From positions 42,364 through 106,363 of the forward strand of contig CALWDO010000004.1 of the NCBI GenBank assembly GCA_944376715.1: a stretch of DNA of 64,000 bases. The letters are read 5' to 3'. Source of the DNA: an uncultured Lachnoclostridium sp. (lineage in GTDB: Bacteria > Bacillota > Clostridia > Lachnospirales > Lachnospiraceae). Shown piece by piece: positions 4,773 through 43,627 of the stretch. Every line of letters begins with the position of its first letter. The stretch's first letter is position 1. The position numbers and the translations under genes are program-made. The notes under the pieces are model-generated. The model was not told the DNA's origin. It worked only from the letters and a program-made list of their open reading frames with translations, and did not search any database.

Positions 4773-5723
4773 CTAATAGCATACCTGCTGAAACTGCATT
4801 CTTTCATACGCCGGATCATTTGGTACGATATAATATTCCATTCCCCAGGAGGATACTTTATACCTTCCGTCGTCAGTCATTCCGGTTATTGTCATGGCAT
4901 GTCCCCCTTCCGCTTCCACTACTTTCTTTCCGTCTGAATCAAATAAAATACACGGGCTGATGCCCACGATCAGTTCTCCTTCCCAGGATAATTCCTCGTA
5001 ATTTTCCGCTGTCACTTCCACCGTCCGCACATCCACCGGGATGCCTTTCTCTTCCAGATACTCCTCCCAGATTTCTTCCCGTTCTTCTCTGGTAGTCCCT
5101 GTTTTCCAGCGCTTGTCCTTTGAACAGTACAGGTCCGTCACCAGAAGCTCAAAATTCAGTTCTCCGGTGCCTGCATACATGGGAAATCCAAATATTTTCC
5201 GGAACTGGTCTTCTCTTCCTACATACTGTCCAAACAATGTATTTGCAAGCGCCACATATCCGCAGCCTTCCAGTTCCAGATCCGCCAGCAGATCCTCTGT
5301 GCCTTTTTCATCAAGCCCCGGATAATAGGATCTGACAATACTTTGAATCCCCTGCCGGATCTCGCCATCCTCTCCCCGGTAAAAAGCCAGCGGAGTGATC
5401 TGGCTGCCTCCGCAGCTTCCTTCTTCATCAAATGCAGGGTTTTCCTCTGCCGGCTTCGGGATCTTCAGCCTGTTTTCCAAAATAATATACTGCCTTGACG
5501 CTTCTTCCAGTCCTGCCTGCAAACGTTTTGCATCTTCAGCTTCCATCTGAAGCTTATTGCTTAATTTCCTCAATGCAGACCGTATCCCGGACAGCCCCTC
5601 CGATCGGAATTCAGAAGCATACTGATCTAACAGACCTGCGTCTTCTATCAGTTTTCTACTCAGCCGTGCCAGAGAATCCGCCCTCTCTGGCACGCCCTTC
5701 GTATCTATTCTGAATGTACTCAT
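4773..5723 (-). CDS. Helical-hairpin protein with C-terminal papain/C39-like cysteine peptidase domain, candidate type VII substrate
   Basis: Unnamed 316-residue protein. Residues 1-88 are amphipathic helices resembling an ESX/WXG hairpin. From about 110 a peptidase-like domain appears: GCGYVALAN with candidate nucleophile Cys154, GGHAMTITGM with candidate His275, then YKVSSWGMEYYIV. In papain-type enzymes the last motif is NSWG, where Asn orients the His; here Ser291 replaces it, so activity is uncertain. No signal peptide or membrane segment. Its ATG overlaps the stop of the preceding WXG100 gene (ATGA), so the two are translationally coupled, as for an effector and its partner. The secretion role is inference from position; it could instead process the secreted proteins. 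Confidence 0.72.
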   Translation of the reverse strand: MSTFRIDTKGVPERADSLARLSRKLIEDAGLLDQYASEFRSEGLSGIRSALRKLSNKLQMEAEDAKRLQAGLEEASRQYIILENRLKIPKPAEENPAFDEEGSCGGSQITPLAFYRGEDGEIRQGIQSIVRSYYPGLDEKGTEDLLADLELEGCGYVALANTLFGQYVGREDQFRKIFGFPMYAGTGELNFELLVTDLYCSKDKRWKTGTTREEREEIWEEYLEEKGIPVDVRTVEVTAENYEELSWEGELIVGISPCILFDSDGKKVVEAEGGHAMTITGMTDDGRYKVSSWGMEYYIVPNDPAYERMQFQQVCY

Positions 5724-6034
5724 ACGATTACATCACCGGACAGCCCGGCGATCTCTTCTTGATTTACATTTTCCGCTTCCCGGTAAACTCTTGCCATCTC
5801 ATTCAAATCTGCCGCGTGTTCCTGAACCATGCAGACCATCTTCCGGATATCCTCATCCAGACGGCGGAAACGGTTTGCGTAGGCCAGCGCGGCTTCTCCT
5901 TCCCATACACCTCCAAGGCTTTCTACCGTCTGTACCATCTGGGCAGTCAGATTGCCAATCAACGTTCCTTTTGCGGCAAACTCTCCTGAAGCCGCTTCCA
6001 ATTGTTCCGGCGTCACTCTCAAAATACCTTCCAT
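5720..6034 (-). CDS. WXG100-type protein (copy 1, next to the peptidase-like protein)
   Basis: A 104-residue all-helical protein with the central turn W-E-G in LGGVWEGEAA near residue 45, flanked by two long helices, as in ESAT-6/EsxA secreted proteins. It opens with ILRVTPEQLEAASGEFA, typical of the family. GGAGGAG lies 6 bases before the ATG. The C-terminus is rich in acidic residues. Its stop overlaps the start of the peptidase-like gene, making it the best candidate partner for export of that protein. Confidence 0.85.
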   Translation of the reverse strand: MEGILRVTPEQLEAASGEFAAKGTLIGNLTAQMVQTVESLGGVWEGEAALAYANRFRRLDEDIRKMVCMVQEHAADLNEMARVYREAENVNQEEIAGLSGDVIV

Positions 6035-6049
6035 CTTTATCTCCTCCTC

Positions 6050-6352
6050 TTACTGATAATTTCTTGCCGAAGCCGTCTGTGTATTGGCATTCTCGGCACG
6101 CTCGTATTTTGCCGCGATAGCCAGCAAAGTGCTGATATATTTCTCTATCAAAGATGAAAAATTCGCCATCTGAATCCGGTCTCTCGCAAATGCCTGATGA
6201 AAGGCATCTTTTGCCTGTCCATCCCACATACCGGCCAGTTTCTGTTCACAAACCTCCAGTTCTCCCGCCTGATTGTCAAACTGCCGGTTCAATCCGGATA
6301 ATTCCTCTGCTTTCGCCCGTAATTGTGATGCTGTCACTCTGATTAACGCCAT
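6050..6352 (-). CDS. WXG100-type protein (copy 2)
   Basis: A 100-residue helical hairpin protein with a W-D-G turn (LAGMWDGQAKDAFHQAF, near residue 43). The start MALIRVTASQLRAKAEEL is the classical WXG100 opening. AGGAGG lies 8 bases before the ATG. This copy and copy 1 are the two most canonical members in the locus and could form a heterodimer; the pairing is inference. Confidence 0.88.
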   Translation of the reverse strand: MALIRVTASQLRAKAEELSGLNRQFDNQAGELEVCEQKLAGMWDGQAKDAFHQAFARDRIQMANFSSLIEKYISTLLAIAAKYERAENANTQTASARNYQ

Positions 6353-6367
6353 TTCTTTTTCCTCCTG

Positions 6368-6667
6368 CTACTCATAATATTTTCGTTCTTTTGCCAGATT
6401 GTACGCCCGCATTTCCGCATCATAGATGCGTTTTGCGGCCCGCCGGAGCGATTCTGCCGCATATTCCAGTTCCTCCGCGCTGGTTTCTATCCCTTTTCCC
6501 AGAGACGCAGCTTTCCCGAACCAGACTGATGCGGCTTCCCCCTCCCAAAAAGACGCCGTTTCATAATATCCGGACTCTTTTCTTAAGCTTTCTGCAAGTC
6601 TTTCAATCTTATCCGCATAACGTGCCGCCCTTTTAAAATCTAACCGGATCTCTGAAGCTGATTTCAT
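6368..6667 (-). CDS. WXG100-like protein (copy 3)
   Basis: A 99-residue helical protein with a W-E-G turn (TASFWEGEAASVWFGKA, near residue 41), preceded by a basic first helix with DFKRAARYADKIERLAESL. It lacks the usual hydrophobic opening IRVTP and is more basic than its neighbours. GGGGGAG precedes the ATG by 7 bases. It sits in a run of five such genes, all on the minus strand with gaps under 25 bases. Probably a secreted or chaperone-like ESX protein; specific role unknown. Confidence 0.8.
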   Translation of the reverse strand: MKSASEIRLDFKRAARYADKIERLAESLRKESGYYETASFWEGEAASVWFGKAASLGKGIETSAEELEYAAESLRRAAKRIYDAEMRAYNLAKERKYYE

Positions 6668-6682
6668 ATATATCTCCCCCTT

Positions 6683-7015
6683 CTATTGAATCACATCTCC
6701 CGGCAAAGCCTCCGCCCATCCTTCCGCCGTCTGTTCTGTCTGCATGTATACAGCCGTTATCCGTTCCAGGTCAGTGACAGAATTTCCCAAATCAGAAAGA
6801 ACTTTCTCCCCAACTTGTCTCAGCCTGGAAAAATAAGCACGGTGCTCATCGCCGGCCTCTCCCTTCCAATATCTTTCTGATCTTTCTGCAGCCTGCTCCA
6901 TCCCGCTTAACAGGCTCTGCATATTCCTTATGATTTGTCTTGCTTCAGAGACGCCTTGAAGAAGTTTTTCCGGATGCACATTCAGTGGAGCATAGATTTC
7001 CTTCTGATATCCCAT
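6683..7015 (-). CDS. WXG100-like protein (copy 4)
   Basis: A 110-residue helical protein with a W-K-G turn (RSERYWKGEAGDEHRAYF, near residue 50). The frame stays open 33 codons upstream into the preceding WXG gene; ATG at 7015 is preferred because it avoids that overlap and has a purine-rich AAGGCGG 3 to 9 bases before it. The C-terminus LPGDVIQ resembles the end of copy 1 (LSGDVIV), suggesting the two are closer relatives. Likely exported by the adjacent ATPase; inference. Confidence 0.78.
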   Translation of the reverse strand: MGYQKEIYAPLNVHPEKLLQGVSEARQIIRNMQSLLSGMEQAAERSERYWKGEAGDEHRAYFSRLRQVGEKVLSDLGNSVTDLERITAVYMQTEQTAEGWAEALPGDVIQ

Positions 7016-7034
7016 ATTCCGCCTTTCCAATATT

Positions 7035-7334
7035 TTAAATTCCTTCCAGACTTTCCTTATTATCCTGCTCGCACCGGATGTATTCATCCTTTGCGTACTC
7101 CATACAGGCAGCAAACCGGCGCATCTCCTTCAGACACTTTTCCATATCCGATTTTTGGTTTCGTATTCTGGCCTGAAATGTCTGACCTGCCTTTCCCTTC
7201 CACATGTTATCTATTCCGTCCAAAAGCTCCGACAAAGCCGTCAGGCAGTTCCAGACATGCTCCGTATACTCTCTGAAGTCCCTGATCACGTCTTCCAATC
7301 CCGTCACATCAACTTCTATCCAAATTTTCTCCAA
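7035..7334 (-). CDS. WXG100-like protein (copy 5, TTG start)
   Basis: A 99-residue helical protein with a W-K-G turn (IDNMWKGKAGQTFQARI, near residue 44). Its start is TTG at 7334; no in-frame ATG exists near the N-terminus, and the weak ribosome site (GCGGG) suggests low expression compared with the other copies. It contains three cysteines (positions about 30, 67 and 76), unusual for the family. It is the first WXG gene after the YukD-like gene. Confidence 0.72.
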   Translation of the reverse strand: MEKIWIEVDVTGLEDVIRDFREYTEHVWNCLTALSELLDGIDNMWKGKAGQTFQARIRNQKSDMEKCLKEMRRFAACMEYAKDEYIRCEQDNKESLEGI

Positions 7335-7357
7335 TACTTATCCCGCTCTCTTTCATT

Positions 7358-7588
7358 TTATACCAGCAACAGCCTGGCTCCGTCTTCAATCCCCGTCTGC
7401 CAAAGCGTTCTCCCAAAAGGAAGAACCCTTTCAAAGTCATAGCTGCACAGCCATAGATCCTGCTTTTCTTTTCCTGGGATCAGCAAAGCGCCTAATTCTT
7501 CAAGGATCTGAGCAACCGGCGCATTCTCATCCAGCCGCGCGTCATACCTGCTCCCCGTAGCCGGCACTTCTATTTCTGTCAGTATCAT
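7358..7588 (-). CDS. YukD/EsaB-type ubiquitin-like protein
   Basis: Small protein (76 residues) with the beta-grasp pattern of YukD/EsaB: ILTEIEVPATGSRYDARLDENAPVAQILEEL, then YDFERVLPFGRTLWQTGIEDGARLLLV, ending in a hydrophobic strand. These proteins are cytosolic accessory factors of Firmicute type VII secretion. The frame is open ten codons further upstream, but ATG at 7588 has AAGGAGAG 5 to 12 bases before it. The position directly after the FtsK-type ATPase gene is as in other type VII loci. Confidence 0.85.
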   Translation of the reverse strand: MILTEIEVPATGSRYDARLDENAPVAQILEELGALLIPGKEKQDLWLCSYDFERVLPFGRTLWQTGIEDGARLLLV

Positions 7589-7614
7589 ATCCGCTCTCCT
7601 TTCTGTGCAATATA

Positions 7615-10600
7615 TCATTCCTTCATCCGCGGAATAATAATTTTCTTTGTTTCTCCATCTGCGGAGGGGAGCAGCCCCACCCCTGGATTTTGAAATTTGC
7701 CCTGCTCCTGATATGGGATGTCAGGGAATGAAAACAATCTTTGTCCACCCACATTTCCGCCCATATGTATGCCTGTGCCATATGAACACATATTCTGGAA
7801 AATTCTATTGCCGGCAAGCCGGGAATACTCTTCCGGTTTGAAAGCCGCGAAGAAATAAATTCCAAGACATTTTCCCTTCCCCGTTATATTTTCCAGATAT
7901 GCCTGAATGCTCCCCTTTCCTTCCAGCAGGCGGCCGGCGGCCTCTATAAACGAGACCAGATCCGGCAGGAAGAAAAAAATCTGAGACTCACGGTTCATCT
8001 CCCCTGCGATTTCCTCCGATCCGGCTCCATCAGCGATCAGTGCCTGCTTCTTTCGGCCTCTTTCCCGAATCTCTTCTACGGTATCTTTAAAGAAAAGATA
8101 CAAATGTTTCTCATCCTCCAGGCATTCTGCGCCCAATCCTTTTGCTTCGCCGGAAAGCCCGCTGTTTTTCAAATCGATCATACAAAGCCTGGCGTCTTTT
8201 TTCTCCGCCGCCTGATGCATCAGTAATTTTAGGATATTCCTCTTTCCGCTCCCCTCTCTTCCCTGAATTATCCAGCAATAAATATTCCAAAGATCCAGAG
8301 AAAAAACCGAAGCATCTTTTGCCAGATACCCTAACGGCAGAAATCTTCTGTCCGCTTTTTGTACCTGATATTCTTCCGTGCCCTTCAAATCGGCAAGCAC
8401 CGGATTATCCGGAATGGAAGGAATCTGTCTGGCCCGTTCTTCCTTCCATTCCGCGTCTACTTTGGCGCAATGTTCTTCTATCTTTTCCCTGTTCCCGTCA
8501 TCGTCTGTCATTGCAGTCTGGAATTCCAGGATTCTGCCATCCACACATGTGATTCCCCTCCCTCTTATTCCCGGTTCCGGCAGCACCGGAACCCTGGATA
8601 CATGCAGCATTTCTGCATATTTAAACTTGTCATTCATTTCCAGGCATATAGCCGTATGTATATTTTCTCCAATCAGAAAAGGAATTCCTCCGTTTCCGGT
8701 TCCCGAAGCAGAAAGTATCAAGAAAACACTGTACGCGGCGCCTTCCCGTGACAGACGCACGAGTTTATCTTCATATTTTCCTTCTGTTTTCTCCTGAAAT
8801 CCCAAATAATTATCCAGAATCACCAGAATGACGGTCATATCTCTTTTGCGGCCTCCCCTTTCCTTTTTCCTCATCTGTCTTCTTTCCTCTATAATCTGCT
8901 CCAGCATATGAAAAAACCTGTCTGCTTTTTCTATATCTGCCTCATTTACAACGCCTCCGCAGTGCGGCGCGCCACTAAATGCCTCCAGCTTACCGTCACT
9001 GTAGTCCAGCACATAGAACTGCAGCTGCCGGGGACTGCAGTTCTGAACCAGGGAACAGAGCATTGTCTGCAAAAAAGTGCTTTTCCCGGTTCCGGCCATG
9101 CCGTATACAGCTGTATGTCCTGCATCCGGAAATACAAGCTTTAAAATTCCCTGCTCCTGTCTGGCCGGGTCATCATACAATCCCATTATTGCCGTTCTTA
9201 TATGAAATTTTATATCCGTCTCCGTTTGTCCGCTCTCCAGATCTGCCAGAATCAGATGCGCCGGCAGTACCGGCTGCCAGAGAATCCGGGATTTAGGGAT
9301 ATGTTCTTTCTTTGCCTGTCCGGCAATTTCTCTTATCAATGCCTGAAGCTGCGTTTCCGTTTCCGACTTCTGTTTCCTTTGTCCTGATTCTCCCGATATC
9401 TGTATCTCTCTTCCATCTTTTCCTATCAGGAACACGCTGCGGCTTTCTCTATCCTTTCCAGGTATATATTCTGCTCCGCTGTATCCTGACTGAAACTCCT
9501 CAAACACCTCGTCATTTCCAACCTGCAGATAAGCCCTTCCTGCCCGTGTAATATAAGATGCGTCCGGCTTATGCAGCATATCCCTGCTGTCCTGTTTGTC
9601 CTGGACTCTGAGACAGATCCGGAACCTGGAATTACTCCAGATGCGTTCATCCACTGTACCGGACGGTTTCTGAGTCGCCAGAATCAGATGTACTCCCAGA
9701 CTTCTGCCCACCTGCGCCACACTGACCAGTTCTGCCATGAATTCCGGCTCTTCCTTTTTCAACTCCGCAAACTCATCGACTATTATAAAAAGGTGCGGAA
9801 GCGGCGTTTCAACCTGGCGCATTTTATACATTCTCATATACTGATCAATATGATTTACCCTGTTTTCTGCCAGGATACGCTGTCTTCGCAAATTCTCGCT
9901 TTTCACGGACATCAAGGCTCTCTGGATCTGATTGCCGGACAGATTGGTAATCTCCCCTGCCATATGCGGAAGCTCACGGAACAGATTTGCCATCCCTCCT
10001 CCCTTAAAGTCAATAATCAGAAAAGTTACGTCTTCGGGACTGAAATTCATCGCCATGGACAAAATCAAAGTCTGAAGCAGTTCGCTTTTTCCGGATCCGG
10101 TCATGCCTGCCACCAGGCCGTGAGGGCCATGGTATTTTTCATGAGGATCCAGGAAACATAATCTGCCTCCTTTTCCGATTCCAACAGGTATTCGCAGGCT
10201 TTCCGCGCTCCGGCTCGTTTTCCACCGCCGGGTAATCTGAAGCTGTTTTAAATTGCAGGCGCCGTACATTTCCAGGAAGCCTGCCGCATCCGGAATTTTA
10301 TTTCCAACCGCACCGTCATCCACCCGGATCCCGCTGAGACGTCTGGCCAGCCGGTCCAGTTCCTCTACTTTTACTGTCTCAAAAACCAGGCTGTTATTCT
10401 TTTCTTCTCCGCAGACAGCGAAAATCTCCGCTGTCCTGCCGTCATTCTGTATCACATATTCGCAGCCATTCGGCAGATCCTCATACCGTTCTGCCAACAA
10501 GACAGATGTAATCCCATATTCCGGTTTCGGGTGCATCACGAAATGTTCCAGAAGTTCGCCTTCCAGCAGTTCCGGACGGTCTATGAACAGGATATAATGG

Positions 10601-12264
10601 GGCAAAGGATATTTTTCATTTTTCCCTCCTGTTTCTGCGCGAATACGGAAAATGCGAGACAGTTCACAGCTGATTTCTCCCATCTGGCTTTTATTCTCCG
10701 CTTTCAGACGAATCTGGCCGGACTCATCCCACACATGCGGAAGCCATCTGACAGACGACCAGCGTCTGCAGTCCTCCGGTCCGTCTCCATGAATAAACAC
10801 CATTTTCACATCGGTATAGCAGCTGCTTACCGCAATCTGAGCTATCATATTGCGGACAATTCCGTAACAGCCCCTTTTCTCCTCTCCCCCTATAATCCCC
10901 ATCATGCCTTTTTCATAAATGCTTATATTAACGGGAACACGATGCAGCATTTTATATTTCTCCCGAAGCAGAAACGGCTTTTCTGTCATTTCGTCCTTCT
11001 CCCAGGCAGATACCGCTCCGGAAACACGGATCTCAGCCTGAAAAGGAATCGTTCCTGTGCCTACCCGGACCTTCAGGAAATCCATGCTTTCTGCGCTGCG
11101 GTTCCAAAGTCTCCGGTCATGTCCGTCCATCCGGCAGCATTCGTTTCCAGACGGGTAGTTTTGAAAGAGAGCTTCTCTGTTGTAGTCCTGCTTCTGCCTG
11201 AGGAAATTTTCCGTCTCCCTCAAATATGACTCATATTTTCGCTCTAGTATCCTCCTTTCCTCCCTTTCCTGCTTCCCGGCATACTTCACCCCGACGGCCG
11301 CCCATAAAGCGCCGGTCAGCGCCGAAGCAGCCGCAGTCAGGATGCCGGCAGCCTGATAAAACCGATAACCGGATCCGGCGGCGGTCAGGAAATATCCTAA
11401 CAGCAGCGGAAGGATCATGGTCAGACTTGGCCCCACCGTCAAATATGCCGGCCTTTTTGGGATTTGAACCGCAGGCTGCATCACCTCTATCTCTATCTGA
11501 TCGGTATAAAGCGCAGCCGCCCTTCTTGGCGCACGTTTTAAATACATTTTTTCCGGCCCGTTTTCCAGGCTTGCCTCTCCATGCTGTTTTTCCGCAGTAC
11601 GTTCACAAAGAAGCGGCCGCAGCACTTTTTCCTCCGTCCTGCACTCTCCAAACCGGACACCAAGGGCAAAACATTTTCCCAGCCAGATAATCTGAAGTCC
11701 AAATATGGTAATCTGATCTCCAAACTTTAAAGACTTCTCTTCCATTATTTTTGTTCCGTTCAGCCAGCTGCCGTTTCTGCTGCTGTCGCAGATCTTCCAC
11801 TGATCCTGCCTTCTGTATATCTGCGCATGTTTTCCTGAGATATAATCTTCAAAATGGTAGTTTATCACGCATCCTTCATCCGCGCCGATCTGTATTCTGT
11901 TTATGTCTGAAAGCGAATATTTCTTTAATGCAGGGTATATCTCTTTACAGACAACAGACAAAAGAAATGCCTGTCCCCCTTCCGTGCTTTTCAGCCGCAG
12001 CAATAACCTGTCTTCCAGCAATACTTCTGCTTCTTCACCTCCTTCCTGACGGATGAATGCATACTCCCGCCCTTTCGCCAAAGACCATCGGAAACCATCT
12101 GATTTTAACAAGACAGTTAAACTCCGGTCAGTCCCCAGCACCTCCCTCTTTAATTGAACCTTATGGTCCATCATCTCCGGACCCGGCAGCATAAATTCCT
12201 GACATTCTTTTGATCCGTATACGATAAGCATATTTCCAGGCACACTGCTTCCCCCAACTCTCAT
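7615..12264 (-). CDS. essC: EssC-type FHA-FtsK/SpoIIIE ATPase, type VII secretion motor
   Basis: A 1549-residue membrane ATPase expected to drive export of WXG100 proteins. An FHA fold lies at about 125-195 (SGKHAQIYRR, SSRNGSWLNGTKI). Two membrane helices follow at about 281-300 and 307-328. Then come three FtsK-like domains: P-loop 1 AGMTGSGKSE near 721-730 with LIIDFKGGG and FIIVDEFAEL; P-loop 2 YGMAGTGKST near 1056-1065; P-loop 3 QGREGSGKRN near 1336-1345, where the Ser/Thr after Lys is Arg, so this domain is probably inactive. The ATG overlaps the FHA gene stop (ATGA). Domain order matches EssC of Firmicutes; the N-terminal FHA may read phosphothreonines made by the kinase in this operon, which is inference. 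Confidence 0.93.
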   Translation of the reverse strand: MRVGGSSVPGNMLIVYGSKECQEFMLPGPEMMDHKVQLKREVLGTDRSLTVLLKSDGFRWSLAKGREYAFIRQEGGEEAEVLLEDRLLLRLKSTEGGQAFLLSVVCKEIYPALKKYSLSDINRIQIGADEGCVINYHFEDYISGKHAQIYRRQDQWKICDSSRNGSWLNGTKIMEEKSLKFGDQITIFGLQIIWLGKCFALGVRFGECRTEEKVLRPLLCERTAEKQHGEASLENGPEKMYLKRAPRRAAALYTDQIEIEVMQPAVQIPKRPAYLTVGPSLTMILPLLLGYFLTAAGSGYRFYQAAGILTAAASALTGALWAAVGVKYAGKQEREERRILERKYESYLRETENFLRQKQDYNREALFQNYPSGNECCRMDGHDRRLWNRSAESMDFLKVRVGTGTIPFQAEIRVSGAVSAWEKDEMTEKPFLLREKYKMLHRVPVNISIYEKGMMGIIGGEEKRGCYGIVRNMIAQIAVSSCYTDVKMVFIHGDGPEDCRRWSSVRWLPHVWDESGQIRLKAENKSQMGEISCELSRIFRIRAETGGKNEKYPLPHYILFIDRPELLEGELLEHFVMHPKPEYGITSVLLAERYEDLPNGCEYVIQNDGRTAEIFAVCGEEKNNSLVFETVKVEELDRLARRLSGIRVDDGAVGNKIPDAAGFLEMYGACNLKQLQITRRWKTSRSAESLRIPVGIGKGGRLCFLDPHEKYHGPHGLVAGMTGSGKSELLQTLILSMAMNFSPEDVTFLIIDFKGGGMANLFRELPHMAGEITNLSGNQIQRALMSVKSENLRRQRILAENRVNHIDQYMRMYKMRQVETPLPHLFIIVDEFAELKKEEPEFMAELVSVAQVGRSLGVHLILATQKPSGTVDERIWSNSRFRICLRVQDKQDSRDMLHKPDASYITRAGRAYLQVGNDEVFEEFQSGYSGAEYIPGKDRESRSVFLIGKDGREIQISGESGQRKQKSETETQLQALIREIAGQAKKEHIPKSRILWQPVLPAHLILADLESGQTETDIKFHIRTAIMGLYDDPARQEQGILKLVFPDAGHTAVYGMAGTGKSTFLQTMLCSLVQNCSPRQLQFYVLDYSDGKLEAFSGAPHCGGVVNEADIEKADRFFHMLEQIIEERRQMRKKERGGRKRDMTVILVILDNYLGFQEKTEGKYEDKLVRLSREGAAYSVFLILSASGTGNGGIPFLIGENIHTAICLEMNDKFKYAEMLHVSRVPVLPEPGIRGRGITCVDGRILEFQTAMTDDDGNREKIEEHCAKVDAEWKEERARQIPSIPDNPVLADLKGTEEYQVQKADRRFLPLGYLAKDASVFSLDLWNIYCWIIQGREGSGKRNILKLLMHQAAEKKDARLCMIDLKNSGLSGEAKGLGAECLEDEKHLYLFFKDTVEEIRERGRKKQALIADGAGSEEIAGEMNRESQIFFFLPDLVSFIEAAGRLLEGKGSIQAYLENITGKGKCLGIYFFAAFKPEEYSRLAGNRIFQNMCSYGTGIHMGGNVGGQRLFSFPDIPYQEQGKFQNPGVGLLPSADGETKKIIIPRMKE

Positions 12265-12809: not shown

Positions 12810-15800
12810 ATACTTCCCCCATTTCTTTTTATCAGGACAAGCCATATACAGGCAGTCAATACCAGGATTCCTCCTGCCGTCCCGAAAAACAGCGGTTTAT
12901 TCATAAAAAACTGTATCAGAATATCAGGCGTAACCAGAAACCGGACTTCTTCCGATATATACTCATTCCCCGCCTCATCACACGCCGTCACCTGTAAAGT
13001 CTGCCAGCCGTTTTGAGCCGGCGCCGTAATGGTAATAATCCCATTTTGGCGGTCCGCCTCCGCCGCCGAAAATACCCTTTTCTCCCCGTCCAGAATTACG
13101 ACAGCCTCCGCCAGGCAAATATTGTCCTGTATATCTATTGTGATTTCACGGCTGCTCTCCCGATACTTTCCGCGGTCTTTCACGCCCGATATCAGGACAC
13201 TGGGGCTTGTCCGGTCTACCGCAAAAGCCAATGTCATACCTTTGGATTGATTATCGGAAACATTTTTTGCCCGGTCTTCAGAATAGACCGTTACCGCATA
13301 AATCCCCTCCTGTTTAAAATTGTCGCGGCTTATAACATATTCATATTGTTTCCAGGTATCCTCCGAGCCGTTCTCCCGGACTGTATAATCTTTTCCTTCT
13401 TCCAGCGTTTCCAGATTTCCATTCCAGTTGCAGGTGATTTTTCTGAATTCCAGCGTATCCACATTTGTTTCTGTAATCCGGATATCCTTTGCCTCACTGA
13501 TATAGTAGGTGTCCGTCCATTCATCAAGCGTATAGACAGACCCGAAGCGGTTCACAGAAAAAGTGACGCTTGTCTCGCTCTGGTTCCCGGCCAGATCGGA
13601 AGCCGTGGCCCGCAGCGTATACAGATCATCTGTTTCGGGCGTATACGAGAAATCTTCCATCTGTATCCACATTCCATCCGCGTTTTTTCCGCTGTCTCCT
13701 TTGATTTCCTGAGCCAGACTCCTGTATCCTTCCAGAGAAACGTCAAAATGTTCAAAATCAAGATGCTGGTCCTTTACCTGAATAAACGGCATAACTTCTC
13801 CCCGATTGGCTGAATGATGGGATACCCGGCTGATTTCCAGGGCAGGCAGCGTCCGGTCTATGATAAAACGGTCAGCCCCATAAGCTTCCACAGGATTTCC
13901 CGCCTGATCTGTCCCGGAAATTTCCAACGTGTATTCCGCATCATTCTCAAATACCACTGTTGCCGTATGACGGTCGCCCTCGCTGTTCCAGGCAGATATT
14001 CCCGATACGGGAGTCCCATCAGCTGTAACATTCACTTGAAACTGTTCCGGGACAAAATTATGTTCCTGAACCTCCAGCATCGCTCTCCGGCTTTCCGAAT
14101 AGTAATATTCGTTGCTGCTTTCATTATTATCATAAGTTACCGTCAAAACTGGCACCGACTGATCGATTGTGAACTCATCCGTTCTGCCGTAATCCGCCTT
14201 GTTTCCCGCCAGATCCTGAAACTCAACTGTAAAAGTATAGTCCCCATCCGCAAAAAAAGTAACTGTACACACATGTAACGTATTGTCCCCGTCCCCGGAT
14301 GAATCCCAGCCGCTGATTTCCGGCATAACTCCATCTGTACTGGTAATGTGGAATTCCACATCTTCCGGCAGAAAATTTCTCTCCTTTACTGTGACTGTCG
14401 CGGTCCGGGTCCGGTTATAAAAACGGCCGTCCGCCGGTTCATTCCGGTCATACTCCACGGTAATCTCCGGCACCGTTACATCGATGTTATAGTATTGAAC
14501 GATCTGCTCCACGTGTCCTGTATTGTCCGTATATTCTGCATATACCTGAATATTATTTTCATTATTATCCGCTGCGGACAGAGTCATTTTCTCCGAATAT
14601 TCCCACACAGCTTCTCTCCGCGGCTCTTCTTTCAGATCATTTCCCGCTTCTTTCGCGTAATTGGCCGTTCCTGACAGAGTATGCCCGCCCAGGTATGCGT
14701 AGCTTCTGATCCCTGACCACTCATCCCGAAGCCGCAGACGCAGATCCACATCCGTATTATAATAGGCGATTCCATCCACTATCCTGCCTGGTTCAGTGAG
14801 TGTCTCCAGTCCTATCTCTCCGCTTTTTCCATGTCTTTCTTCACTCTCCACCACATGCCCATGTTCCCGTAAAACTGTATTTCCGGACCAGTCGTACACC
14901 TCTACCCGGACAGTTCCTCTGAAATCCTGACCGTCTACAGGAACCGCCGCTTCACGTATCTCTTGAAAGGAAGGACTGCTGAGGTATTCTTTTTCCGTCA
15001 CCTTTCCTTTTTCGTCCGTGATAAGAAAACGGATCCTTTCAATCCCCGATATCATATCTTCCGCCGTCACAGTCAGAGTCATCTTTTTGTCCGCAAACAG
15101 ATATCCCAGATCCCGGTAATTTACCGCATCCAGGAATCCGGCCGGCTCCGTACTCCAATCCAGACTGATCTTCGGCTCTGTAAAATCCACGGTACCTTTC
15201 ACAGAAATATATTCCGATCGGTTTCCCGCCAGATCCTCGCATCCTACAGGTATCTCATAGTTTGCTTCCGTCAAAAGGGGAAGATACCATATGATCCCGT
15301 CTTCCTCTGTCCTGACAGAATCTGCATTTTCCAAAAAATCACCAAGAGCATGCTCCTGTATCTCCCTGCCCTGGCTGTCCGACGCCTGTGCTTCTTTCAG
15401 AGTATCCAGCAGCTCCTGACCGCGCACATGTTTGTCTTCCACTTGTATTTTCAAATAGACAGGTCTGGAAAAAAATCCTTCTTTTGAAGCCACCTCTTCC
15501 ATGGACAAATCCGCATATGACAGATAAACGCGGGGCGGCGTACGGTCCAGCACCAGAACAGGACTTTCATATGCCGTATGATTGTCCGCAGCATCCCGGT
15601 ATTCCATAAAGATGACATAGCTGCCTTCTTCCGCCAAAGTAAACCTCCCCTCATAACAGTTTCCTTTCCGGTTCCACTTTACATCCGGCCTGCAGACCGC
15701 GCCGCTCTCTTCCAGAACCGACAATTCAAAATCTTCCAGCTCAGTCATTTCGTCTTCATTCGTCACAGGCAGAGCATAGTCTTCTTCCAACGTGAAAGAT

Positions 15801-17533
15801 ACGGTTATATTTCCGTCATAATAAGCCGTATAGCCTTCCTGTGGCTCCTGTTCCTGTATGTCGTATTCCCTCCCTGTATTTCCATCCCGGACCAGACGTT
15901 TCGCCTTGGCGTACATAACCTTCAGCAGGGGCTCTTTTTCGTCCAGAATAAAATCCTTGCTGATATAGGTTCCGGATTCATTGAGATCTCCCGTCTTTCT
16001 CAACTCTTCCAGATTCTCTTCCGATAAGCTCATAGCCGCCCCCGCAGGATCCAAATAAGACAACTCAACATTGTATCTGGAAGGTTCCCATTCCTCTTTC
16101 CCTTCAAACACATATTCTGCCTGATGAATCTGGCCTTCTGTGCTCCACTCCAGCATATCTCCGCTCACAGACACTGCCGGAATCCCCGAGGCATGATGAT
16201 TGACTCTCAGCACGACTCTGTCCGGGCTCCAGTCTGCTTCCCTTTCATTCAGCGAAAACAGGATTTTTACATTTCCATGTTGATATACCAAAGCTCCATC
16301 CTCCATCCGCCGGTCAGACTCTCCCGTGATGGAAAAAGCCGTCAGTCTCGGAGCTCTGTCATCCAGCGTAAGTTCCCCTTCCCATTCCAGCCTGTTCCCG
16401 GAACAGTCCTCACAAACCGCCTCAATCTGATAATCTGCCTCCTGTCCTTCCAGATACGGCAAAGTAATCGTCGCCTTAATCTCCTCCTCTGATAATTCTT
16501 CCCATCTCACAAGATTTTCCGGACTCATCAGTTCCCCATTCTGATACACCGAGATCTTCGGATAGACAAGCATGTCTTCCTGCACCGGAAAATACGTCTC
16601 TGTAAATGTCAGCCTGACAGTTTCAAATGCTTCTCCATCTTTCGGTCTGCAATAACCTTTTCCGTTATTATTTCCATCCCACTGGGGATATTCCGCCTGC
16701 ACCGCAGGAGTTGTCCGGTCTATCACCAGCATGACCGTTCCTTCTGCCACAGCCGCGCCGTCTTCATATTCTGCCTTATTTCCCGCATAATCCGTAACAG
16801 AAAGAATCTTAAGAGTATCTGCGGTTTCCGCCTCGATCGGGAAGGTAACCACAGAGTAGTATTTTTCATCGTATTCTTCTGTAAAACTACATTCCGCCGT
16901 TCCCTCGCTTCCTCCGTACTCGTATCTGACTGTCTTTACTCCGGAAAATTCATCCAGAAGATACAGCGTTACCTGGATCTTTTCCTTTCCAAATATGTAA
17001 TTTGAAAGTCCTGCCGTATCCGTCAGCAGACTTCTCGGGTAGCATACAGGATCCCCCTCATCCTCATAAACGCTGTACTCCGCCAGGATACTGTCCACCT
17101 GCGGAACAATCTTATCTTTCTTTACAGAACAGGCGGCTTCCTCCGACACATTTCCTGACGCGTCTCCTGCCCGGAAATAATACTCTCCTTCATACCCTGT
17201 ATCCTCTTCCATAACAGAAAACATCCAGCAGCCATCGTCCGAGATCTCCGCATCTTCTTTCCGGATCCATTCTGTCTCATCCCCTTTTCTGTACTCCAGA
17301 TATGGCATTTCTTCGCTTTCTATGGCGACTGTAAACTGAATATCCTCCCGGACCCATCCATCTTCATTTGGATTCGGAGAAATCTCTATCTCCTTTACCA
17401 TTGGCATTCTTATTTCCGTATCCGGTACAGTTTCTCTCTCCAGGACATGTCTCTCCTCCGCTGCAGCCGGGAGTTCTTTGCAGTACCATATCCCGGCAAT
17501 CAAAACCGCTGCCATCAACCCTTTCACAAACAT
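12806..17533 (-). CDS. Giant Ig-like-repeat surface protein with C-terminal membrane anchor
   Basis: About 1575 residues. ATG at 17533 (GGGGGA upstream) gives a signal peptide with basic MFVKG, hydrophobic LMAAVLIAGIW and a PAAAEE cleavage-like region. The rest is a chain of bacterial Ig-like units of roughly 100 residues, each with Asp-Arg-Thr starts (DRTTPAVQ, DRTPPRVYL, DRTSPSVLI) and D-x-x-G-N ends (DYAGNKAEY, DLAGNRSEY, DLAGNKADY, DQAGNPVEA, DEAGNEYIS); at least ten are visible. A membrane helix near the C-terminus (FFGTAGGILVLTACIWLVLI) and KRNGGSM end it, so the protein stands outside the cell on the membrane, not sorted by sortase. Its position between kinase and FHA genes suggests a structural part of the secretion machine, perhaps the EsaA role; this is inference. 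Confidence 0.8.
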   Translation of the reverse strand: MFVKGLMAAVLIAGIWYCKELPAAAEERHVLERETVPDTEIRMPMVKEIEISPNPNEDGWVREDIQFTVAIESEEMPYLEYRKGDETEWIRKEDAEISDDGCWMFSVMEEDTGYEGEYYFRAGDASGNVSEEAACSVKKDKIVPQVDSILAEYSVYEDEGDPVCYPRSLLTDTAGLSNYIFGKEKIQVTLYLLDEFSGVKTVRYEYGGSEGTAECSFTEEYDEKYYSVVTFPIEAETADTLKILSVTDYAGNKAEYEDGAAVAEGTVMLVIDRTTPAVQAEYPQWDGNNNGKGYCRPKDGEAFETVRLTFTETYFPVQEDMLVYPKISVYQNGELMSPENLVRWEELSEEEIKATITLPYLEGQEADYQIEAVCEDCSGNRLEWEGELTLDDRAPRLTAFSITGESDRRMEDGALVYQHGNVKILFSLNEREADWSPDRVVLRVNHHASGIPAVSVSGDMLEWSTEGQIHQAEYVFEGKEEWEPSRYNVELSYLDPAGAAMSLSEENLEELRKTGDLNESGTYISKDFILDEKEPLLKVMYAKAKRLVRDGNTGREYDIQEQEPQEGYTAYYDGNITVSFTLEEDYALPVTNEDEMTELEDFELSVLEESGAVCRPDVKWNRKGNCYEGRFTLAEEGSYVIFMEYRDAADNHTAYESPVLVLDRTPPRVYLSYADLSMEEVASKEGFFSRPVYLKIQVEDKHVRGQELLDTLKEAQASDSQGREIQEHALGDFLENADSVRTEEDGIIWYLPLLTEANYEIPVGCEDLAGNRSEYISVKGTVDFTEPKISLDWSTEPAGFLDAVNYRDLGYLFADKKMTLTVTAEDMISGIERIRFLITDEKGKVTEKEYLSSPSFQEIREAAVPVDGQDFRGTVRVEVYDWSGNTVLREHGHVVESEERHGKSGEIGLETLTEPGRIVDGIAYYNTDVDLRLRLRDEWSGIRSYAYLGGHTLSGTANYAKEAGNDLKEEPRREAVWEYSEKMTLSAADNNENNIQVYAEYTDNTGHVEQIVQYYNIDVTVPEITVEYDRNEPADGRFYNRTRTATVTVKERNFLPEDVEFHITSTDGVMPEISGWDSSGDGDNTLHVCTVTFFADGDYTFTVEFQDLAGNKADYGRTDEFTIDQSVPVLTVTYDNNESSNEYYYSESRRAMLEVQEHNFVPEQFQVNVTADGTPVSGISAWNSEGDRHTATVVFENDAEYTLEISGTDQAGNPVEAYGADRFIIDRTLPALEISRVSHHSANRGEVMPFIQVKDQHLDFEHFDVSLEGYRSLAQEIKGDSGKNADGMWIQMEDFSYTPETDDLYTLRATASDLAGNQSETSVTFSVNRFGSVYTLDEWTDTYYISEAKDIRITETNVDTLEFRKITCNWNGNLETLEEGKDYTVRENGSEDTWKQYEYVISRDNFKQEGIYAVTVYSEDRAKNVSDNQSKGMTLAFAVDRTSPSVLISGVKDRGKYRESSREITIDIQDNICLAEAVVILDGEKRVFSAAEADRQNGIITITAPAQNGWQTLQVTACDEAGNEYISEEVRFLVTPDILIQFFMNKPLFFGTAGGILVLTACIWLVLIKRNGGSM

Positions 17534-17546
17534 TCTCTTTTCCCCC

Positions 17547-17762
17547 TTATACGACTTCATCTGTGTGTATGATCAATATTTCTTTGTCCACACAGTAAGA
17601 CGGTTTCTTCTTTCCCAGACTCATATGAAAAAAATTCAACACCTTTCCCATATCCATCCTGATATACAGAAACGCAGCGGCGACTAAACAAAGAACCGAA
17701 TTTATCAGACAGATCTGCGAAATCATATGATAAAGCTCCACGTAATCTGTCATCTCAGTCAT
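17547..17762 (-). CDS. Small membrane protein of the type VII locus
   Basis: A 71-residue protein with one hydrophobic helix (about 14-34, QICLINSVLCLVAAAFLYI) and a basic then mixed C-terminal tail. ATG at 17762 is preceded by AGGAGG with 7 bases spacing and lies inside the last codons of the kinase gene, so it is coupled to it. It has no family I recognise. Small single-span proteins (EssA-like) are part of Firmicute type VII complexes; the comparison is by size and position only. Confidence 0.7.
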   Translation of the reverse strand: MTEMTDYVELYHMISQICLINSVLCLVAAAFLYIRMDMGKVLNFFHMSLGKKKPSYCVDKEILIIHTDEVV

Positions 17763-19434
17763 ACTCTTCCTCCTGTCCATAAGCAGACCGGACCATCCGT
17801 TTCGCTGTTTCTATATCCTCCTGCAGACCTGAAATCTCTTTTTCTCCGCCGCCATTCTCCGAAACTTTAGAAAAGTCTGATTTCAGGTGGCCTTCGATAC
17901 TCTCCAGCTGCTCCAGCATTTCTTTTCTCTCTACTCCGGAATCTATAAATTCCGGCGTTCTGGATATGATCTGGCTGATCAGTTCTTCGTACATCACGAG
18001 CGCAGTTCTCTCATTATCCATCGCTACCAGATTTCCTGCGGAAAGCGACATCAGATCTTCCCAGTATTCCCGATAGGTAATCGATGCGTCCCCCGCTTCG
18101 TCCACAATCCCTATCCGCGCATAATAATCAGAAATCTTATACAGACGCTTTGCTCTTTCCACCTGATTCTGTTCAAGGTTCCGCGACTCCGATGCGGTCT
18201 TAAAATATCCCCGGGCATTCTTTTTATTGCTTTCTTCTTCAAATTTATAGAAATACGCGATTCCCGCTTCATAGGAAAATGTGTCATATCCCTTTCTGTT
18301 TTCACGAAATATCTGTTCATTGGTCTGTTTTCTGTCCCCATATGAGATCAAGATGCCGCGCATAATTTCACTCTCCTCTGCCGTCAGAATGCCGTCATCC
18401 AGGAACCCGTCCTTCAGAAGACTCAGATACGCAGTCTCTTTGACAGGATTCAGATTAATCGCCTTCCGGTAATTTTCCAGCTCTTCTTCCTTGGAGGCGG
18501 AATTCTGCGCTGCCAGCAAAAACGCCTCATAACTGCTGCCTCTGGCATGGCTTTCCAGCACCGTGAATATACCTGCGCCCATCGCAGAAGCGGCCGTCAG
18601 GCATACTGAAAGAAGAAAACAGATCAGTTTCTTTTTCTGGATAACCCAATATCTGGAATCCATTTCCCAGTAATGTTCCAAAGCATAGAGCAGTTCTTCG
18701 CAGGACTGGTAACGCTCCTCTTTCCTGGGCTTTGTACATCGTTGAATTATAGCCTCCAGGCCGGCTGAAAGCTCTGGAACATATTCCCGGATCGGACGCA
18801 GCCGATACGGGCTTTCCCCTGTCAGGAGCTGAAAAAGCATTACTCCCAGTCCGTAAATGTCTGTTCTGGCATCGCTCTGTTCTGTCTCCGTATATTGTTC
18901 CGGCGCTGCGTACCCCCTTGTTCCCAGAGAAACAGTATCCCCGTGACTGCCCGGACAATACTCTCTCGCGGCGCCAAAGTCGATCAACACCACATTCCCA
19001 TCCGGTTTCAGCATTACATTGGCCGGCTTCATATCCCGGTAAATGACCGCCGGTTTTCTGGAATGCAGATACGACAATACCTCGCACAGCTGTTTTGCCC
19101 ATCCGATCACCGTCTCCTGGGGCTGGCGGCCATACTCTGCCAGAATATCTTCCAGAGACCGGCCTTCTATATAATCCATAACGATCAGAAGTGTTCCATC
19201 GCCTTCTATCACATCGGTAATGCTTGGAAGATGAGGATGTCTCAGTTTTTTCATCATCTGAATCTCTTTTTTGTCCACCTGAAAACCGTCATGGCCTTTT
19301 TCCCGCACCTCCTTGACCGCCCAGGGTTTATTGGCTCTTTCATTCAAGGCAAGATAGACAGTGCTCATTCCTCCTTCTCCGATCACATTCAATATTTTAT
19401 ACTTTCCCTCAATGACTGAACCGATCTCCAACAT
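17755..19434 (-). CDS. Membrane Ser/Thr protein kinase with extracytoplasmic helical domain
   Basis: A 559-residue protein. Residues 1-260 are a Hanks-type kinase with all key residues: IGEGGMSTVYLA loop, Lys41 in PWAVKEV, catalytic YRDMKPANV with Asp134, IDFGAARE with Asp152, and GTRGYAAPEQY. A membrane helix at about 270-292 leads to an outer domain of about 265 residues, helical and repeat-like (TPR-like in pattern). GGGAG precedes the ATG. The overlap with the PP2C gene is 26 bases. In Firmicute type VII systems EssB has a dead kinase fold, one membrane helix and an outer helical domain; this protein has the same plan but an intact active site. The target is unknown; FHA proteins and the ATPase are candidates. 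Confidence 0.93.
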   Translation of the reverse strand: MLEIGSVIEGKYKILNVIGEGGMSTVYLALNERANKPWAVKEVREKGHDGFQVDKKEIQMMKKLRHPHLPSITDVIEGDGTLLIVMDYIEGRSLEDILAEYGRQPQETVIGWAKQLCEVLSYLHSRKPAVIYRDMKPANVMLKPDGNVVLIDFGAAREYCPGSHGDTVSLGTRGYAAPEQYTETEQSDARTDIYGLGVMLFQLLTGESPYRLRPIREYVPELSAGLEAIIQRCTKPRKEERYQSCEELLYALEHYWEMDSRYWVIQKKKLICFLLSVCLTAASAMGAGIFTVLESHARGSSYEAFLLAAQNSASKEEELENYRKAINLNPVKETAYLSLLKDGFLDDGILTAEESEIMRGILISYGDRKQTNEQIFRENRKGYDTFSYEAGIAYFYKFEEESNKKNARGYFKTASESRNLEQNQVERAKRLYKISDYYARIGIVDEAGDASITYREYWEDLMSLSAGNLVAMDNERTALVMYEELISQIISRTPEFIDSGVERKEMLEQLESIEGHLKSDFSKVSENGGGEKEISGLQEDIETAKRMVRSAYGQEEEYD

Positions 19435-20206
19435 TCCGTTTCTCCCTTTCCGTCCTTATGGCAATCACGGAGATATTATCCCGTTCACCCCGTTCCAGAT
19501 TCCTGTCTGCCAATATCCTGCACTGTTCCTCCAGCGCTTTCTCATCCGACATCTGCTCCTGACAAAATGTATGATGCATCTCTTCAGCGCTGACCTCATG
19601 ACAGAACCCGTCACTGCAGACCAGATACACCGCTCCTTCTTTCACCGGGCCGCAGATATGCTCCGGAACACAGCCGTCCCCTCCTCCCACGCACTGCAGC
19701 AATATACTCCGTCTTGGATCCTTACTTGCCTGCTCTTCCGTCAAAAGCCCCTTTTTTACTTCTTCCGCTACCAGCGTCTGATCGGAAGTGATCTGCAAAG
19801 CTTCCCTCCCCAGCTCATAGACCCGGCTGTCACCCACATGCGCAATATAGTACCTTCCCCGAAACAGCAATAAAACTGTAGCCGTCGTACCCATTCGGAT
19901 GCCGTATCTGCGGCTGTATGCGCGCAGTCTGCAGTCTGCTTCGTTCAGGATCAGGTCCATGGAATGAAAAATCCTGCCTTTTCTCCTCCAACGGAAACGC
20001 CGCAGTTCTTTCTCCAGCCATCCGGAAAAAGCCGTCACTACAGATGCGCTCGCCGTCTCTCCCCTGTCCAGGCCGCCCATTCCGTCGCACAGTACTGCCA
20101 GAACTGCCTGTTCCCTGCCGTTCCCCGCTCTTTGTACCAGTATCGAATCCTGGTTTCCTTTCTTTCTCCTGCCTTCATCGGTGTAACAGGAAATAAAATA
20201 TCTCAT
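19409..20206 (-). CDS. PP2C-family Ser/Thr protein phosphatase
   Basis: A 265-residue cytosolic metal-dependent phosphatase. PP2C metal and catalytic motifs are in order: KKGNQDSILV near 15-24, VLCDGMGGLDRGE near 38-50, MGTTATVLLL near 104, AHVGDSRVYEL near 122, VCSDGF near 195 and ERDNISVIAI near 241. It is expected to reverse phosphorylation by the kinase encoded next. AGGAGGG precedes the ATG by 5 bases. It overlaps the prepilin peptidase gene by 32 bases and the kinase gene by 26, so all three are coupled. Confidence 0.94.
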   Translation of the reverse strand: MRYFISCYTDEGRRKKGNQDSILVQRAGNGREQAVLAVLCDGMGGLDRGETASASVVTAFSGWLEKELRRFRWRRKGRIFHSMDLILNEADCRLRAYSRRYGIRMGTTATVLLLFRGRYYIAHVGDSRVYELGREALQITSDQTLVAEEVKKGLLTEEQASKDPRRSILLQCVGGGDGCVPEHICGPVKEGAVYLVCSDGFCHEVSAEEMHHTFCQEQMSDEKALEEQCRILADRNLERGERDNISVIAIRTEREKRNVGDRFSH

Positions 20207-20681
20207 CTTTCCCTCCTGTTTCCAGCAACATCGCTAAGGTCGTGCCGGCCAGCGCGAACGGCGCCAGAGGAATCCCCTTTTCCCATTTTCCTTTTCCATG
20301 CAAAAGCAGATACAGACTCCACACGGATGCCAGAGAAAGACTGAATAAAATCGAATCCCAGACTCGGCCGCCCAGATAATATCCGATTGTCGCGAACAAT
20401 TTTACATCTCCGACTCCTACTCCTCCCTTTGAAATCATACAGCAGATCAGAAAAAATCCCCCTCCGGAAAGTGCGCCCCACACGGACGAAAGCAATATAT
20501 GGGTCCACGTATCCGATGACGAAACGCACTCCTGCAGCAGCAATATGCTTCTCAGCGTCAACATCGCCACAAGCATCCGGTTTGGAATGATCCGCTCTTT
20601 CAAATCAGTCTTTGCGATCATTACAAGTCCGCACATAAGGATCAGACAGCGCAAAAACCTCCATACAGAATATATGTCCAT
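20175..20681 (-). CDS. A24-family prepilin peptidase (TadV/CpaA-like)
   Basis: A 168-residue polytopic membrane protein with the two catalytic aspartates of GxGD peptidases: KTDLKERIIPN (first Asp near residue 19) and GVGVGDVKLFATIG (second near residue 90), separated by hydrophobic helices. It is the short form, without the N-methyltransferase zinc domain, as in TadV. ATG at 20681 is chosen by homology pattern; a GTG at 20726 in frame is possible and sits after a GGGCG/CGCCC hairpin. It is the first gene of the 16-kb locus, yet no prepilin-like gene is visible in the window, so its substrate is unknown. Confidence 0.85.
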   Translation of the reverse strand: MDIYSVWRFLRCLILMCGLVMIAKTDLKERIIPNRMLVAMLTLRSILLLQECVSSSDTWTHILLSSVWGALSGGGFFLICCMISKGGVGVGDVKLFATIGYYLGGRVWDSILFSLSLASVWSLYLLLHGKGKWEKGIPLAPFALAGTTLAMLLETGGKDEIFYFLLHR

Positions 20682-20748
20682 ACTAACCGGCCCTATCGTT
20701 ATACTATTAATAAATTGGAATCTCACGGGCGAACGCCCCTGAATTTTT

Positions 20749-21651: not shown

Positions 21652-21652
21652 A

Positions 21653-22561: not shown

Positions 22562-22593
22562 ACTATCCTCTCATCCTTTCTGACTCCGGGAAA

Positions 22594-43502: not shown

Positions 43503-43520
43503 CAGTCATTTTCCGGTATC

Positions 43521-43606
43521 TCTCCCTACGTTGGCATTATCCAAATCAGGTTCCGGGTCGAGACCAGCCAGTCTCCTCTCAGCCGGCTTCAGCCAGCTCC
43601 CCGTCG
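43521..43606 (-). ncRNA. TPP riboswitch (THI element)
   Basis: On the minus strand the aptamer has all conserved blocks: GGGGAGCTGG, GGCTGAGAGGAG, GACCCGGAACCTGATTTGGA, TAATGCCAACGTAGGGA. It binds thiamine pyrophosphate and controls thiW-thiM-thiE-thiD-thiC. Confidence 0.96.
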
Positions 43607-43627
43607 CAATATTGAACTACTGTAATT

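Follow-up and report, generated by a model that had tools for sequence, protein, structure and literature searches.

Several type VII secretion systems, T7SSc-j, were described by Garrett, Higginson and Palmer in 2024 (PMC11217815). The T7SSe set comprises a WXG pair (TseA and TseA2), the YukD-like TseB, an EssC with an FHA domain (TseC), the transmembrane (TM) kinase TseD and the PP2C phosphatase TseF, and further the one-helix TseH, the giant immunoglobulin-like (Ig) TseI, the DUF6382-FHA protein TseJ and the single-TM TseK. Control by phosphorylation was already suggested there by the T7SSe authors. Here we analyzed a T7SSe-like gene run in 64,000 nucleotides of an uncultured Lachnoclostridium sp. 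(contig CALWDO010000004.1, positions 42,364 to 106,363), hereafter the window. The source draft genome, G000, is 2.9 Mb in 79 contigs and 88% complete; other genomes, contigs and loci carry G, C and L numbers. At a probability of roughly 0.6, we read the run as two joined modules, a portable phospho-control and envelope cassette and a T7SSe-like export core.

Based on the list of open reading frames (ORFs), the minus strand at 4773-20726 is a single tight run of 14 genes, in which adjacent genes either overlap or are spaced by a few tens of bases; some of the starts are uncertain. The original prediction had described a tight single operon of twelve genes; the tight run holds, and the count becomes 14 with a 77-aa gene (17547-17780) and the last gene (4773-5723), both undescribed before. 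The families that it named were confirmed at their places on the minus strand by the ORFs, Pfam (14/14 genes scanned) and NCBIfam (10/14). The upstream half is transcribed in the order A24 peptidase, PP2C, TM Hanks kinase, 77-aa single-helix protein and 1584-aa Ig protein, and the downstream half in the order TM-FHA protein, FHA-EssC, YukD-like protein, five WXG100-type proteins and a WXG-like/cysteine-peptidase-like gene:

20175-20726, minus strand: A24 prepilin-peptidase-like protein (PF01478, 6.5e-14), GxGD motif intact; ATG at 20681 is an alternative start.
19409-20206, minus strand: PP2C-type phosphatase, TseF-like (PP2C_2, 5.3e-7; NF033484, 1.3e-45, below the cut-off of that model).
17755-19434, minus strand: Hanks kinase, TseD-like (PF00069, 2.6e-47), with one TM segment (271-289) and a helical extracellular C-terminus.
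17547-17780, minus strand: 77-aa single-helix protein, TseH-like, with one TM segment and the tail IHTDEVV.
12806-17560, minus strand: giant Ig-like protein, TseI-like (PF19077, 3.5e-19), with a signal-peptide-like N-terminus by eye and a C-terminal TM segment (1559-1577).
12261-12845, minus strand: TM-FHA protein, TM segment 21-39, C-terminal FHA (PF00498, 3.6e-17).
7615-12270, minus strand: EssC-type ATPase (TIGR03928, 998.5 bits, cut-off 778), with an N-terminal FHA at residues 128-189.
7358-7618, minus strand: YukD/EsaB-like protein (PF08817, 39.8 bits, cut-off 27).
7035-7334, minus strand: WXG100 protein W5 (WKG), above the PF06013 cut-off.
6683-7114, minus strand: WXG100 protein W4 (WKG), above the PF06013 cut-off; start uncertain, 6985 possible.
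6368-6667, minus strand: WXG100-like protein W3 (WEG), PF06013 19.2 and TIGR03930 6e-7, both below cut-off.
6050-6352, minus strand: WXG100 protein W2 (WDG), above the PF06013 cut-off.
5720-6034, minus strand: WXG100 protein W1 (WEG), above the PF06013 cut-off.
4773-5723, minus strand: candidate exported protein, a WXG-like helical hairpin followed by a C39/papain-like cysteine-peptidase-like domain (CGY, GGHAMTITG).

Module 1 (12806-20726; A24, PP2C, TM kinase, TseH-like and giant Ig genes) would be a unit that occurs alone and as the 3' part of Tad-type loci, and module 2 (4773-12845; TM-FHA, FHA-EssC, YukD, five WXG100 and the WXG-like cysteine-peptidase gene) would be the T7SSe-like export core. 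The same site in relatives was defined by the flanking ATP-binding cassette (ABC) transporter gene at ≥80% identity, which was found in 13 of the 17 genomes of the genus, window included, and all 13 sites were read. Both halves lie there in the window and G014 (2/13). The kinase half stands at the site without T7 genes in five genomes (5/13), with A24, PP2C, kinase, TseH and Ig genes in G005 and G009; A24, kinase and a TseH in frame with Ig in G012, where no PP2C was found and MiaB was not seen; PP2C, kinase, a separate TseH and Ig in G015; and kinase, TseH and Ig in G002. At the T7-free sites of G005, G009 and G012, A24 follows the same ABC gene. In G006 (1/13), the site holds the T7 half with A24 only. 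Two sites are empty (G001 and G013, 2/13), MiaB coming directly after the ABC gene, and three (G004, G010 and G011, 3/13) have other genes after it; in G004, A24, PP2C, kinase and TseH lie elsewhere, adjoining MiaB. This comparison shows the two halves coming apart as blocks at one and the same position.

The original proposal of one machine made up of all the genes is weakened by these sites. The proposal had named, as speaking against it, relatives that keep the EssC and WXG part and lose the kinase, phosphatase, Ig and peptidase genes at random. Such a relative was found: the same-site locus of G006 keeps A24, FHA, EssC, YukD, five WXG and the peptidase gene without PP2C, kinase, TseH-like and Ig genes, and the reverse case is commoner, with the kinase half of five genus mates at the site and no T7 gene there. 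The loss is mostly block-wise, with A24 and PP2C varying within the cassette. On contig C18 of G006, two T7 loci (L036 and L037) lie ~28 kb apart, the same-site one without kinase genes and the other with its own, and a PP2C-kinase-TseH-Ig cassette lies on contig C6 of the same genome.

Throughout the genus, the C-terminal outer domain of the kinase was found in 17/17 genomes and WXG100 in 9/17, and the kinase cassette lies beside T7 genes on the same contig in 4/17 (G000, G013, G014 and G016). In the eight WXG-free genomes (G002, G004, G005, G007, G008, G010, G012 and G015), no EssC match above FtsK level was found. All eight carry the kinase and TseH-like sequence, which is fused to Ig in G012, and the Ig giant is present in 7/8, G004 being the exception. 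In a sample of 299 genomes of the family, the kinase (E ≤ 1e-20) was found in 43 and EssC (E ≤ 1e-40) in 73. EssC is present in 24 of the kinase genomes and absent from 19. The two genes lie within 25 kb on one contig in 9 of the 24 and farther apart or on another contig in 15, some of the latter near contig ends and one (G187) with its kinase beside WXG genes. EssCs above 1600 bits, the type closest to that of the window, occur in 24 genomes, 9 of them with the kinase. Gene content of T7 loci from 10-kb flanks was left unused as a statistic, as cassettes can lie farther upstream (L224). The association of kinase and EssC is real but loose in both directions.

Neighbourhoods were read in 19 EssC-free genomes (20 loci), 15 EssC-positive genomes with an unlinked kinase (16 loci) and 9 linked genomes. 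Among the EssC-free kinase genomes, 6/19 are Tad-type with the cassette as their 3' part, and in 13/19 the stretch read holds no T7 or Tad genes. The order in the Tad loci is A24, WG-repeat protein, DUF6382-FHA, PP2C, kinase, TseH and Ig, with variations, and an A24 of the locus itself heads the set in most of them. Upstream of the cassette, Pfam matches were TadZ-ARD, T2SSE, two T2SSF and A24 in G310, T2SSE and two T2SSF in G170, and T2SSE in G113 and G308; TadE and DUF6382-FHA were found by Pfam in some Tad-type loci. For L178 (G003, same genus), the Tad label rests on the WG-repeat and DUF6382-FHA genes, the Tad core being on other contigs. A class-wide search with a strict cut-off (E ≤ 1e-15) recovered the kinase in 9/391 genomes, three of them from other families. 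All three of these are Tad-type by gene order with the cassette as the 3' part, one having TadZ-A-B-C in the adjoining stretch.

In the window genome, TadZ, TadA, TadB and TadC were found neither in the run nor in the 20 kb of its own contig downstream (L238). T2SSE and T2SSF matches lie on contigs C5, C10 and C24, and L243 on C10 is the genome's own Tad locus, with TadZ/A/B/C, A24 and DUF6382-FHA, in which no PP2C or kinase of the cassette type was matched. We also considered A24 as the sole prepilin peptidase of G006, serving its Tad pilus, and rejected this, as a 131-aa A24-like gene lies in another Tad locus. Such a gene is found in a separate Tad locus of both G006 and the window genome; that of the window genome passes the PF01478 cut-off, and that of G006 is not among the PF01478 matches. 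TadZ-like ORFs also lie near EssC in G145 and G264 (L249 and L250), as in the published T7SSf.

The kinase tree was obtained by a quick search without bootstrap, includes four long rows and carries labels that rest on the stretch fetched; L150, a partial copy of L177, was dropped, and L186 and L225 were set to T7 by hand from EssC positions. Its 60 rows are 12 T7, 9 Tad (L178, L189, L195, L200, L203, L205, L206, L221 and L222), 36 other and 3 trypsin-FHA. The window and G014 fall in a 12-row clade (Shimodaira-Hasegawa-like approximate likelihood ratio test, 100), in which the ten other rows are not T7-linked, one carrying the Tad label and nine having no link to T7 or Tad within the stretch read. 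Eight of the ten are from EssC-free genomes; G003 and G009 have T7 genes elsewhere. The clade mates of the window kinase are thus mostly not T7-linked. Beyond the window-G014 pair, the nearest kinase is the Tad-labelled one of G003 (67% identity), with G005 at 66.5%, and the T7-linked kinases of the same genus (G013 and G016) lie outside the clade at 59% each. The T7 label needs seven changes on the tree, at least 5 of which are forced by starred branches. In the EssC tree (97 rows, FastTree, L005-L021 left out as short copies of longer loci), the window, G014 and G006 have L038, L058 and L072, three loci with kinase and Ig genes close by, as neighbours and lie apart from L049. Based on the two trees, the halves of the run have different nearest relatives.

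In the cassette, the kinase keeps its catalytic motifs (AVK, YRDMKPAN and DFG) and the phosphatase has DGMGG, GTT, GDSR, SDG and DNIS. The AlphaFold2 model of the kinase has a mean predicted local distance difference test score (pLDDT) of 79.9, with S. aureus Stk1 as the top fold match; 50/50 listed fold matches are kinases, a result that does not speak to kinship of the outer domain. Against PDB sequences up to E 10, the outer domain matched TPR-type, designed or unrelated chains only. The kinase was also considered as an EssB relative, given its similar topology, and this was rejected, the kinase having no PF10140 match at E ≤ 0.1. A profile from the 77-aa protein and two relatives recovers the counterpart in L049, and in many rows the TseH-like tail closes with HT[DE]EV[IV] or something close to it. 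Counting rows with a separate adjacent TseH, HT lies within the last 24 residues in 8/10 T7-labelled, 3/3 trypsin-FHA, 14/25 other and 1/8 Tad-labelled rows. In L064:2585-3913, the outer kinase domain is missing and a TseH-like membrane tail is fused to the kinase domain, and in L168 (G012) a TseH-like start and the Ig giant share one reading frame, giving the cassette a second fusion. These fusions, each on one draft contig, support the view that kinase, TseH-like and Ig proteins act together.

In the export half, the TM-FHA protein keeps the FHA motifs GK, SRIH and NSTNG and had no DUF6382 or protease match in Pfam. From its homologues, EssC likely starts at 12231. Four of the five WXG proteins pass the PF06013 cut-off (27.3), and the W-x-G motif is present in 5/5. 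The 4773-5723 product had no Pfam match of note, and its NF045837 match (4.5e-4) is below cut-off; its AlphaFold2 model has a pLDDT of about 80-90 in the hairpin and 54 as a whole, too weak for a fold search. Homologues are found in L035, L036, L063, L088 and L111, one of them weakly matching Peptidase_C39_2 (1.2e-3, below cut-off). A CGY or CSY / GHAM / VSSWG pattern is common to the window protein and its T7-locus homologues in L063, L088 and L111, and a helical N-terminus precedes the peptidase-like pattern in most homologues, that of L088 having a WXG-profile match and the L111 ORF being the C-terminal part alone. The product is likely an exported peptidase. The gene after it is MiaB-like, with no evident immunity gene there.

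Other T7 loci present variants of this half. L039:1471-3207 and L037:16348-18087 encode a signal-peptide-like start, a trypsin-like domain, a TM segment and then FHA (by Pfam in L039, by profile and by eye in L037), an arrangement that would wire an outside protease to an inside FHA. L044:4195-4917 encodes a LytTR regulator (Pfam, L044 only), with a second ORF of ~240 aa, between EssC and YukD; ORFs of similar size lie there in many Lachnospiraceae T7 loci and not in the window, G014 or G006.

We infer that the cassette may gate export by phosphorylation. The kinase would sense the envelope by means of the Ig protein and/or its own helical outer domain, and could phosphorylate threonines in the TseH-like tail or in the linker of the TM-FHA protein (GRTSVL in the window). 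Phosphorylated sites would dock on the FHA of the TM-FHA protein and/or of EssC, licensing the ATPase, and PP2C would reset the phospho-switch. As exported cargo we propose the WXG proteins and the peptidase protein. A24 most likely has a Tad origin, having been brought in with the cassette, and may have no role in export.

Several observations weigh against two joined modules working in this way. The EssC FHA keeps its Ser, His and Asn positions in 8/8 aligned sequences and lacks the canonical Arg of 'GR' in 7/8, window included, which weakens phosphothreonine docking on EssC; therefore, the TM-FHA protein is the better docking candidate. Linker motifs of the TSLL/TTVL type, present in longer relatives, are missing from the window TseH-like protein, and the giant Ig proteins were matched by repeat-rich profiles, so that homology of all of them is not assured. 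Among the T7-free drafts, G007 (88%), G008 (77%) and G012 (80%) are incomplete, and G002, G004, G005, G010 and G015 are 92-98% complete. For rows labelled other, a contig end or the 16-kb limit of the stretch viewed may hide a neighbouring T7 or Tad locus, as is possible for G001, whose kinase sits in an FHA-rich stretch of a short contig. The A24 tree, which covers 18 of 22 intended loci (L205, L206, L237 and L245 were left out by a motif filter), is weakly supported and its deep branches are weak. Synonymous divergence (dS) is saturated or high in the comparisons of nonsynonymous to synonymous divergence (dN/dS). Finally, within the family kinase and EssC occur together more often than chance would give (odds ratio 5.3, p 1.5e-6), and considering this association and the overlap in one run, functional coupling of the halves is quite possible.

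The same association is what a single dedicated machine would lead one to expect, with kinase, PP2C, TseH- and TseI-like proteins as core T7SSe parts, in line with what is published on T7SSd/e, and the T7-free cassettes as leftovers after loss of the export half. The proteins TseD, TseF, TseH and TseI are listed as T7SSe components in PMC11217815, and L049/L255 has the full T7SSe set by content. However, T7-free cassettes keep long open genes with dN/dS well below 1 (for G015 against G008, both without a WXG match, 0.107 for the kinase and 0.162 for Ig, with dS >1), the cassette shares a contig with T7 genes in just 4/17 genus genomes, and the matches from other families are Tad-type in 3/3 cases. 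We therefore regard a single machine as unlikely. Less likely still is that the two halves are mere neighbours: the cassette would serve envelope sensing or pili, and the T7 half, which lies between MiaB and the Ig gene, would have a transcript in common with it but no mechanism. The block boundaries at the site and the retention of A24 without the remaining cassette in G006 are in line with this, but similar cassettes occur in other T7 loci with FHA proteins, and in the window and G014 both halves are retained, the 11 run genes that were compared having dN/dS of 0.03-0.27. That A24 processes a T7 component as part of export is very improbable: it is the first gene of the run in the window and G014, and G006 retains it beside the T7 half, but it also accompanies T7-free cassettes (G005, G009 and G012) and Tad loci, and no class III signal was noticed by eye, no predictor having been run, in the proteins inspected.

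Going beyond the joining of two modules in the window, we give even odds to a wider reading, in which the kinase, phosphatase, TseH and giant Ig cassette would be a general envelope phospho-switch for Tad pili and type VII secretion, two trans-envelope machines unrelated to each other, whose partners were swapped repeatedly. On that reading, type VII specificity would be lost for several published T7SSd/e 'core' parts, and the window would be a hybrid that still has a pilus peptidase attached. Portability of the cassette, if it holds, would call for revising the lists of type VII core parts drawn from gene neighbourhoods, would make the conserved kinase and phosphatase set testable as a shared regulator of pili and export in gut-associated Lachnospiraceae, and would explain the odd peptidase, with sites that hold both halves, either or none as natural comparisons.

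A hairpin and a promoter-like site separate the run from the upstream ABC transporter genes (20839-23652, with a PF04392 binding protein), which are its conserved left flank in the genus:

about 20831-20793, minus strand: hairpin and T-run after the ABC transporter gene, seen by eye; the scan did not list it.
20800-20773, minus strand: promoter-like TTGATT-16-TATAGT, a consensus match only.

The scan found 29 promoter-like sites, with 22.4 expected by chance. No clear terminator was noted after the last gene (4773-5723), ahead of the MiaB-type gene that lies downstream. Upstream of the ABC transporter genes lies a T-box leader (Rfam RF00230, 23750-23992, minus strand), and a thiamine pyrophosphate riboswitch (RF00059) lies at 43506-43613, minus strand.

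When compared with T7SSb (Ess/Yuk of Staphylococcus and Bacillus), the run is alike in its EssC-type ATPase, WXG100 and YukD proteins. It differs in that EssB is missing, as had been noticed at the outset: PF10140 is above cut-off in 0/61 genomes, with three sub-cut-off matches in relatives and none of any kind in the window genome, and an active-looking kinase stands instead of the pseudokinase. EssA and EsaA are not named among the Pfam and NCBIfam matches of the run's proteins; no genome-wide search for them was made. With T7SSe as described in PMC11217815, seven features are shared: FHA-EssC, a WXG100 pair or more, YukD, a TM kinase with an active site, PP2C, TseH and TseI. Two of the five WXG proteins would correspond to TseA and TseA2. 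The run has the TM-FHA protein instead of the DUF6382-FHA TseJ, DUF6382-FHA being present only in the genome's Tad locus on another contig, and no further small TM gene that could be TseK was noted in it, no TseK profile having been used; we therefore call the run T7SSe-like and not T7SSe. It differs from that published set also in its five WXG proteins, the A24 peptidase and the WXG-like cysteine-peptidase gene. In a tree without the published TseC sequences, its EssC and that of L049 stand on different branches; L049/L255, an order-level relative, is T7SSe by content.

Module 1 in turn matches the A24 ... PP2C, kinase, TseH, Ig order of Tad-type loci in Lachnospiraceae and three other families (L228-L234, L245-L247 and L254). 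Unlike them, the window has no WG-repeat or DUF6382-FHA gene separating A24 from PP2C, and TadZ/A/B/C are missing from its run. The suggestion of a phospho-controlled variant stands in so far as this is a type VII-like locus without EssB and with kinase, phosphatase and FHA proteins; as an idea it is largely published already, as T7SSc-j, in PMC11217815. Among open-licence PubMed Central papers, Tad pilus, protein kinase, FHA domain and phosphatase occur together only in PMC11217815; T7SSe and, separately, DUF6382 are likewise found in that paper alone. Within that literature, the portability of the kinase, PP2C, TseH and TseI set, and its sharing with Tad-type loci, seem new.

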